Origin: Oxalicibacterium faecigallinarum
GTDB taxonomy: Bacteria; Pseudomonadota; Gammaproteobacteria; Burkholderiales; Burkholderiaceae_D
DNA: 64,000 nucleotides
NCBI RefSeq assembly: GCF_014635705.1
Contig: NZ_BMDI01000001.1
Span: 248,001-312,000, forward strand
Direction: 5' to 3'
Positions 17,136 through 18,662 of this stretch are shown piece after piece. A model generated the notes under the pieces. It did not search any database, had not been told where the DNA came from, and saw only the letters and a program-made list of their open reading frames with translations. Numbering within the stretch: the stretch's first letter is position 1; every line of letters starts with the position of its first letter. Both the position numbers and the translations under genes were made by a program.

Positions 17136-18152
17136 ATGAAAGTTTTCTACGATAAAGACTGTGACCTCTCGCTGATCAAAGGTAAAAACGTTGCCATCAT
17201 CGGTTACGGTTCGCAAGGCCACGCCCACGCACAAAACCTGAACGATTCCGGCGTCAACGTGACCGTCGGCCTGCGTAAAGGTGGCGCATCTTGGGACAAA
17301 GTTGCCAAGGCCGGTCTGAAAGTTGCAGAAGTCAACGACGCAGTCAAGGCTGCTGACGTCATCATGATCTTGCTGCCAGATGAAAACATCGCTCAGGTCT
17401 ACAGCGAAAACATCGCACCACACGCCAAGCAAGGCGCTGTGCTGGCATTTGCACACGGTTTCAACGTGCACTACGGTCAAGTTGTTCCACGTGCTGATCT
17501 GGATGTCATCATGGTTGCGCCTAAGGCACCTGGTCACACCGTTCGTGGCACCTACGCACAAGGTGGTGGCGTTCCTCACCTGATCGCTGTCTATCAGGAC
17601 AAATCGGGCGTTGCACGTGACATCGCTCTGTCGTACGCCATGGCCAACGGCGGTGGCCGTGCCGGCATCATCGAAACCAACTTCCGTGAAGAAACCGAAA
17701 CCGATCTGTTCGGCGAACAAGCCGTTCTGTGCGGTGGTGCAGTTGAACTGATCAAGGCTGGTTTTGAAACGCTGACCGAAGCCGGTTATGCACCTGAAAT
17801 GGCTTACTTCGAATGCCTGCATGAACTGAAACTGATCGTTGATCTGATCTATGAAGGCGGTATCGCCAACATGAACTACTCGATCTCGAACAATGCAGAA
17901 TACGGCGAATACGTCACCGGCCCACGCGTCGTGACCGAAGACACCAAAAATGCAATGCGTCAGTGCCTGAAAGACATTCAAACCGGCGAATACGCGAAGA
18001 GCTTCATCCTGGAAAACAAGGCTGGCGCACCTACGCTGATTTCCCGTCGTCGTCTGAACGCAGAACACGAGATCGAACAGGTCGGTGCAAAACTGCGTGC
18101 GATGATGCCTTGGATCGCAAAAAACAAGCTGGTCGATCAATCGAAGAACTAA
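17136..18152 (+). CDS. ilvC: Ketol-acid reductoisomerase IlvC
   Basis: IlvC converts acetolactate and acetohydroxybutyrate to the dihydroxy acids, using NADPH and Mg2+. The 338-residue protein is the short class I form. The NADPH site GYGSQG is at 23-28, and the metal ligands lie in the [16 protein letters not shown] segment. A GGAAC ribosome site precedes the ATG. The final codons ([14 protein letters not shown]) are the start of a sequence that recurs, decayed, twice downstream. Codon use is very regular, consistent with a highly expressed gene. Confidence 0.97.
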
Positions 18153-18179
18153 TCTCTTCGAAGAGACTGCGGGCATCAT

Positions 18180-18204
18180 CTGCATTCGTTTGAAACGAAT
18201 GCAG
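18180..18204 (+). repeat. Perfect 12-bp hairpin in the ilvC 3' UTR
   Basis: Left arm 18180-18191, one central base, right arm 18193-18204, all pairing. It has no T tract of its own and stands 10 nt before the terminator. Copy 2 keeps only a weakened version (CATTCG with CGAAT). Confidence 0.8.
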
Positions 18205-18214
18205 CGCTCGGACG

Positions 18215-18243
18215 AAAAGCCACGCATTTGCGTGGCTTTTTTT
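18215..18243 (+). terminator. Rho-independent terminator of ilvBHC (copy 1)
   Basis: AAAAGCCACGC pairs with GCGTGGCTTTT across a 4-nt loop, followed by T. It is the first of two intact terminators in the tandem array. Confidence 0.92.
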
Positions 18244-18364
18244 ACGTCCTTACGTGCCTTGGATTGCAAAAAACAAGCCGGTCGATAATCGAAGGACTAA
18301 TCCCTTCGAAGAGATTGCGGACATCATTCGGCATTCGCTGGTGCACGAATATATCGCTCGGACT

Positions 18365-18394
18365 AAAAGCCGCGCGAAGGAGCGGCTTTTTTTT
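18365..18394 (+). terminator. Second terminator in the ilvC array (copy 2)
   Basis: AAAAGCCGC at 18365-18373 pairs with GCGGCTTTT at 18382-18390, followed by four further Ts. It occupies the same place in its repeat unit as the first terminator. Confidence 0.88.
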
Positions 18395-18662
18395 GCCCAG
18401 ACGTCCTGACTTGCCTTGGATCGCACAAACAAGCGGATTGATCAATGGAAGCATCAACGCTTCGATAGATCGACAAAAAGCGAGACAGATACCTGGCTTT
18501 CTTGTTTTTGGCATGTTCCGTTAACATTTGGTTGCATTAAAGGCGGTAGCGGTTTCCGATTGGAAAGAACTATTCGTTTCTCTATCCGTCTGATTCAACG
18601 TTACGTTATCTCGTACGCATTGCTGCATTGCTTCTGCATTCCCCTTTAAACGGAGACTTATC

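Follow-up and report, generated by a model that had tools for sequence, protein, structure and literature searches.

Repeated ilvC ends in Oxalicibacterium faecigallinarum as a probable array of a small gene-end-restoring element

Why should the end of a biosynthetic gene be present three times in a row? This question is raised by ilvC of O. faecigallinarum (genome G000) in the window, that is, the whole stretch of 64,000 nucleotides analysed here (positions 248,001 to 312,000 of contig NZ_BMDI01000001.1, forward strand). Our comparison suggests that the feature is probably an array of a small, ORF-less element which restores the gene end, the units being exchanged at the junction and decaying distally. 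A gene-less unit of ~100-190 bases seems to restore the ends of several important genes over many genera. If true, this would explain the odd repeats behind such genes and show that coding sequence can be swapped harmlessly, and the unit would offer a small natural tool for inserting DNA precisely at the ends of genes.

The ilvC array and its counterparts in relatives

The array starts within ilvC and consists of two units and a decayed third. The parts of the locus are as follows.

17136..18152, + strand: ilvC, 338 aa, whose final 14 codons and stop form the tail in unit 1
18102..18109, + strand: insertion junction ATGA/TGCC, spanning both ATG codons of MMPW and the CC after them; the left motif of the unit is its reverse complement
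18106..18254, + strand: unit 1, with ilvC tail, UTR spacer, left motif, hairpin 1, hairpin 2, and right end
18172..18179, + strand: left motif GGCATCAT of unit 1, a candidate guide, complementary to the junction
18180..18204, + strand: hairpin 1 of unit 1, with arms of 12 bases
18210..18249, + strand: hairpin 2 of unit 1 and covarying outer arms; terminator-like part 18215-18240
18210-18214 (GGACG) and 18245-18249 (CGTCC), + strand: outer arms round hairpin 2, the distal arm beyond the U-run
18255..18411, + strand: unit 2, whose tail has a 1-nt deletion, with a weaker hairpin 1 and a good hairpin 2
18412..18520 (end approximate), + strand: unit 3, a decayed tail and remnant
18663..19427, + strand: next downstream gene, 254 aa, putatively SIMPL/DUF541-like

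Self-alignment bears out the three direct copies which a sequence-only reading of this DNA had noticed behind ilvC. They start at 18106, 18255, and 18412, with a spacing of 149 from unit 1 to unit 2 and of 157 from unit 2 to unit 3. Units 1 and 2 are identical at 125 of 147 aligned bases, with a score of 89.5 compared with 12.5 for the best of 500 shuffles. Unit 3, taken as 18412-18520, is weak but above its shuffles (23.5 compared with 8.6; 500 shuffles). We agree with that reading that copy 3 is frameshifted and decayed and that the decay proceeds from the distal end, unit 3 being the most decayed. Its description of copy 2 as coding in frame holds in so far as copy 2 spells PWIAKNKPVDNRRTN, but not throughout, because a 1-nt deletion near the end shifts the frame; the NRRTN of copy 2 is out of the ilvC frame and reads QSKN followed by a stop. 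The terminator stems of units 1 and 2 do differ in sequence, as had been claimed (GCCACGC/GCGTGGC and GCCGC/GCGGC, respectively), and pairing is kept despite the change. A simple terminator scan of the window listed neither of these two hairpins; both are shown by covariance model R2, and that of unit 1 also by folding. A further R2 match in the window, at 35451-35540, was rejected as an element copy and is an ordinary terminator. At 20541-20570, a symmetrical bidirectional terminator-like hairpin gives a partial R2 match on both strands, and is probably ordinary as well.

The ilvC downstream regions of related Oxalobacteraceae, with which the sequence-only reading had proposed a comparison, contain the same copies. 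Among 90 ilvC loci read in the family (30 and 60), which are mostly high-ranking matches and not a random sample, 27 have a second ilvC tail within ~650 nt that scores above its own shuffles by a margin. A stricter cut gave 36 copies in 27 of 92 records, namely 25 of the 90 loci and the MAG loci L118 and L119, which had been found among 80 named loci together with L064 (= G007). The start of the copies is fixed: 25 of the 36 begin at the T of the second ATG codon (T of TGCC), and the others 1-5 nt later. The spacing of copy 2 is also narrow, being 144-155 in 25 of 27. G089 has two ilvC genes (L220 and L221), both followed by an array, one with five R2 matches and the other with two. In G015, a second ilvC 3' fragment lies apart from the main gene (G015:C35:40884-41090), and covers residues 270-338 at 71% identity with one internal stop.

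A folded core at several genes

The UTR of 28 first ilvC units folds into hairpin 1 (11 pairs) and hairpin 2 (11 pairs), with arms which enclose hairpin 2 together with the U-run. Covariation over 30 pairs gave 143 cells with two-sided changes, compared with 42.7 in shuffles (none of 500 reached the observed value), and none of the slid controls exceeded 25. Alignment A4 was set aside, as two types of hairpin 2 are mixed in it. The covarying pairs include the arms on either side of the U-run, and the distal arm, which comes after the U-run, would thus no longer be part of an RNA ended by the terminator. Just before hairpin 1 stands the conserved GGCATCAT, whose reverse complement is the ilvC junction ATGATGCC; DNA folding of unit 1 of the window pairs ATGATGCC with GGCATCAT. 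A T run of at least 6 follows hairpin 2 in 24 of the 28 Oxalobacteraceae ilvC units, and T runs are present in three further ilvC units from other families (L231-L233). In alignment A5, made up of ferredoxin and ssrA units and of ilvC units from genus g52 and two other lineages, a U-run at hairpin 2 is absent from all 12 rows, the longest T run being 3. The units are ~100-190 nt in size, and the longest open stretch in seven of them is 36-55 codons.

Covariance models R2 and R3 were used to trace the core elsewhere. At the 5' end of the ferredoxin gene, to which it runs antisense, the core is found in the window genome (L262) and in G003, G005, G006, G008, G009, G010, and G012; G012 has two units there, and G008 three. 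At the 3' end of proA, six units are present in G009, single ones in G004, G005, G006, and G012, and a degenerate one in G001; G000 and G011 have remnants at most, and the locus of G003 is cut by the contig end. The fold of the G009 proA unit is moderate only (z -2.15). Two units lie at tRNA-Phe in G360, and units were also found at tRNA-Arg (G709) and tRNA-Pro (G866) in two other families of the class. Elements are located beside ARAGORN-reported tmRNA genes (ssrA) in G005, G058, G113, G190, G566, and G573. In the three of these that were viewed closely (G058, G190, and G573), the units are in reversed orientation to the gene and the copies are degenerate; the ssrA sites follow the same gene-end logic less clearly than the ferredoxin, proA, and tRNA sites.

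In G113, a segment of 6-7 kb (L309, ~2070-8700) lies between ssrA-side element copies, with a displaced ssrA end at ~2070-2105 and the tmRNA at 8707-9064. From ORF reading, this segment presumably encodes an IS30-like transposase as well as a retron-like reverse transcriptase (4681-5763) with a further ORF upstream of it.

Model R3 had matches in 25 of the 349 genomes searched in the order (E 0.001) and in 6 of the 369 searched in the class (E 0.0001), with the window genome among the matches in both cases. The R2 matches in 94 of 245 genomes are only an upper figure because many weak R2 matches are ordinary terminators; when 20 matches were checked, 7 were the element (three at ilvC and four at ferredoxin) and 13 were not. 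The window genome contains a third, weaker element match, L311 (G000:C3:180935-181012; E 4.4e-5). The presence of relatives of the element at several gene ends suggests a kind of tiny genetic element not described before.

Displaced gene ends and their possible origins

As far as can be read from sequence, the comparison, which covers one genome per species, shows a conserved folded core at several genes, with a fixed start, coding-type divergence of the gene ends, its own end and UTR at occupied sites, and exchange at the junction. At the ilvC, proA, and ferredoxin sites compared, a restored gene is accompanied by a displaced fragment. For proA, the unit is present in G004, G005, G006, G009, and G012 and absent in G002, G007, G008, and G010, and, by eye, the last copy and flank of G006 resemble unit-less G010.

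The ferredoxin genes of the window genome and G012 can be compared directly. The single unit of G000 matches unit 2 of G012 at 123 of 129 positions, but unit 1 at 86 of 122, and the ferredoxin start of G000, ATGGCTTTAATGATCACCGAC, recurs unchanged as the second copy of G012. Between these two genomes, ilvC is 95% identical. The proximal unit was therefore either gained in G012 or lost in G000, with the gene start changing along. This is direct comparative evidence for the proximal unit supplying the gene end.

The displaced ends themselves differ from the working ones mostly at synonymous codons. Copy 2 of ilvC shows 73 synonymous and 14 non-synonymous codon differences from the tail of its own genome (73/87), and all ilvC copies pooled show 86 and 33. 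The corresponding numbers are 27 and 3 for ferredoxin (11 copies, 8 genomes) and 7 and 2 for proA. The ilvC counts used a score cut of 44, which excluded the truncated copies of G011 and G002. The expectation under uniform changes is 19% synonymous, and ~32%, by our own estimate, if the gene alone is constrained. The binomial values for the synonymous excess are extreme but only indicative, since the genomes are related and the counts phylogenetically non-independent. Some copies with purely synonymous changes have no in-frame ATG, GTG, or TTG near their start (G252), and translation of the displaced copy is therefore unlikely as the cause. In the window, the displaced copies are mostly non-synonymous (copy 2, one synonymous and two non-synonymous; copy 3, none and four), and G299 copies 2-4 have non-synonymous changes only.

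Could recombination among relatives explain all of this? The units may have spread purely by homologous recombination with DNA of relatives, for example by transformation, misaligned crossovers between gene-end copies introducing a foreign end with its unit and pushing the resident one outward, with no dedicated recombinase. We consider this unlikely as a complete account, although it is the alternative that survives best. It agrees with the synonymous differences of displaced ends, and with the ferredoxin locus of G012, where the proximal unit is unlike that of G000 and the G000-like unit is second. However, no donor tract was revealed in the ferredoxin body (G000-G012 0.83, G012-G008 0.79), and the first arrival of the core at several unrelated genes is left unexplained. 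Homologous recombination between gene-end copies very likely contributes, as the arrays of G299 and G010 indicate, and we share the view of the sequence-only reading that the copies are linked with recombination at the ilvC end. It could be enough to spread units among relatives, but would not bring them to new genes.

A restored gene together with a displaced fragment is also the signature of integrase islands, in which, according to PMC4383910, a fragment carried by the insert restores the gene and the displaced fragment stays behind. This resemblance, and the presence of ssrA and tRNA genes among the sites, would be consistent with the units being minimal satellites of a tyrosine-integrase element, in which the att core is the gene-end copy and the integrase binds the hairpins. 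The units, however, with the open stretches given above, are too small for an integrase gene, and none was seen between units at the sites read. Furthermore, searches of viral contigs (with exact ilvC-tail patterns), phages, and plasmids yielded no element copy and hence no carrier; on plasmids, the sole match was a stretch of 58 bases of ilvC tail, present in four Sinorhizobium records, of which one is annotated ilvC. One integrase normally uses one site, whereas here one core is common to unrelated sites. We thus regard a satellite of this kind as improbable.

The sequence-only reading had explained the array as a tandemly duplicated ilvC tail with its terminator. In its full form, this would be an old duplication of the ilvC 3' end whose copies are kept alike by unequal crossing-over and gene conversion, with no mobile element. 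We tested it against unit-less sites in one genus, g52; the genus of the window gave no clean empty ilvC site. In G172, G191, G221, and G240, ilvC is followed by the native flank. In each of the occupied genomes G063, G116, G148, G181, and G231, the UTR behind the first tail belongs to the unit, and a flank resembling the empty sites comes after the last tail. This flank matches at 52 of 55 positions between G148 and empty G240 and at 43 of 46 between G116 and empty G172; G063, G181, and G231 are less close, with 40-42 matches over 46-51 aligned positions and G191 as best partner. The UTR of unit 1 aligns with the native flank of empty g52 sites over short stretches only. The comparison covers five occupied and three empty sites, with occupied G160 and empty G221 not included in the numbers; of the other g52 genomes among the ten considered, G134 is unreadable, G095 is cut off by a contig edge, and the unit of G201 lacks hairpin 2. 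Tandem duplication requires that the UTR of the unit be the native flank, which is not what these sites show, and it is contradicted for the first unit in g52. It is also at odds with the same core at ferredoxin, proA, and tRNA genes, and with the 73 of 87 synonymous copy-2 differences, where about one third would be expected for neutral copies by our estimate. Near-identical, recent units in G010, four non-synonymous changes common to G299 copies 2-4, and unit mosaics such as L156 (by eye) do speak for duplication, and local tandem expansion of units takes place as well, as in G010 and G299. As an explanation of the element as such, duplication has little probability.

Least probable of all is that the array is retained to regulate ilvC, as a small RNA derived from the 3' UTR or as a stacked terminator. 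This would agree with the strong covariation in the hairpins and the T runs of Oxalobacteraceae ilvC units, and fits these units, but not the ferredoxin, proA, or tRNA sites. Against it are the A5 units without such a T run, the covarying distal arm after the U-run, and the antisense core at the ferredoxin start. Rfam, moreover, has no family that reaches its gathering score for the ilvC region, and in six element loci only a tRNA exceeded it.

A possible mechanism and its relation to known systems

We therefore return to the element that restores gene ends, and propose how it may work. A unit consists, in this order, of a gene-end copy, a short spacer, the left motif, hairpin 1, hairpin 2 in its paired arms, and a right end abutting the older gene-end copy. 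On arriving at the junction, it would cut off the old gene end and supply a working one. If the gene end is supplied by the proximal unit, units at the gene would therefore be selected for function, while displaced units would decay. The form in which the unit moves may be a folded single strand of DNA; the left motif would pick the junction by pairing and the hairpin 2 arms would set the right end, similar to the guides of IS200/IS605; recombination between gene-end copies would then expand and shrink the arrays. It is conceivable, and we put it forward tentatively, that this represents an undescribed class of folded mini-element in which base-pairing picks a gene junction and the insert supplies the replacement end, and which lives in ilvC, proA, ferredoxin, and tRNA genes and stacks in arrays. 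The IS200/IS605-like single-strand guide is the mechanism that we favour, though it is unproven and slightly more doubtful than the class itself.

The pairing between the junction and the left region would agree with such a guide at several loci, but is not general. At eight loci in six genes, the longest complementary runs were 8, 11, 8, 6, 5, 5, 6, and 6 (mean 6.9), in hand-picked windows of unequal length, compared with a mean of 4.2 for 52 mismatched pairs across genes, four of which also reached 6. The ssrA sites were excluded because their junction is unclear. At ferredoxin, the left motif tracks the junction of each species (GTCGG/CCGAC in G000 and GTCC/GGAC in G009). In proA of G005, tRNA-Arg, and tRNA-Phe, the longest run lies away from the expected place next to hairpin 1.

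The element has part of the logic of integrase islands and of IS200/IS605/REP, yet fails a defining feature of each. Like IS200/IS605 and REP/REPIN (TnpA-REP, RAYT), it has short palindromic ends and, at several sites, a motif 5' of a hairpin that is complementary to the site, the guide logic that PMC8266576 describes for the sites used by IS200/IS605. The GTAG motif of REP, in contrast, is missing in six of the seven element units tested. Neither IS200/IS605 nor REP/REPIN is known to carry a gene end or to restore a target gene. With islands that use an integrase in tRNA genes, tmRNA genes, and gene ends, the element has in common that the gene is restored and a displaced fragment left (PMC4383910). 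It differs from them in its size of ~100-190 nt, with no room for an integrase, and in the use of one core at several unrelated sites. We know of no gene-end restoration other than that by kilobase islands with integrases. Integron attC sites, which are recognized by the core motif GTTRRRY and the inverse core RYYYAAC, also conserve structure above sequence and form arrays. However, none of seven element units has GTTRRRY, one of the seven has RYYYAAC, and there is no cassette. BIME, ERIC, and RIME are intergenic mosaic repeats that are short, palindromic, and non-coding, as is the element, some of whose relatives are also dispersed (core matches in G430 and G439); unlike these repeats, the element carries and replaces gene ends with coding-type divergence. 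Our literature search, with subscription journals mostly outside it, found no description of the element, although an older one under another name is possible.

No enzyme that would mobilise the units was found. A Y1 transposase was considered as the cognate one. Each of the 13 genomes of the genus contains exactly one Y1 match (L319-L331), which, unlike in IS200/IS605 and REP, is located away from the element. No convincing element copy was found beside the Y1 genes, where the single R3 match has an E of 0.45. Y1/RAYT is thus unsupported as the cognate enzyme, the Y1 gene being in a different repeat context: the 12 loci inspected have GGGGTCAGAGT-like flanks. In itself, the Y1 gene of the genus resembles a transposase that has long been kept in single copy and has a repeat of its own.
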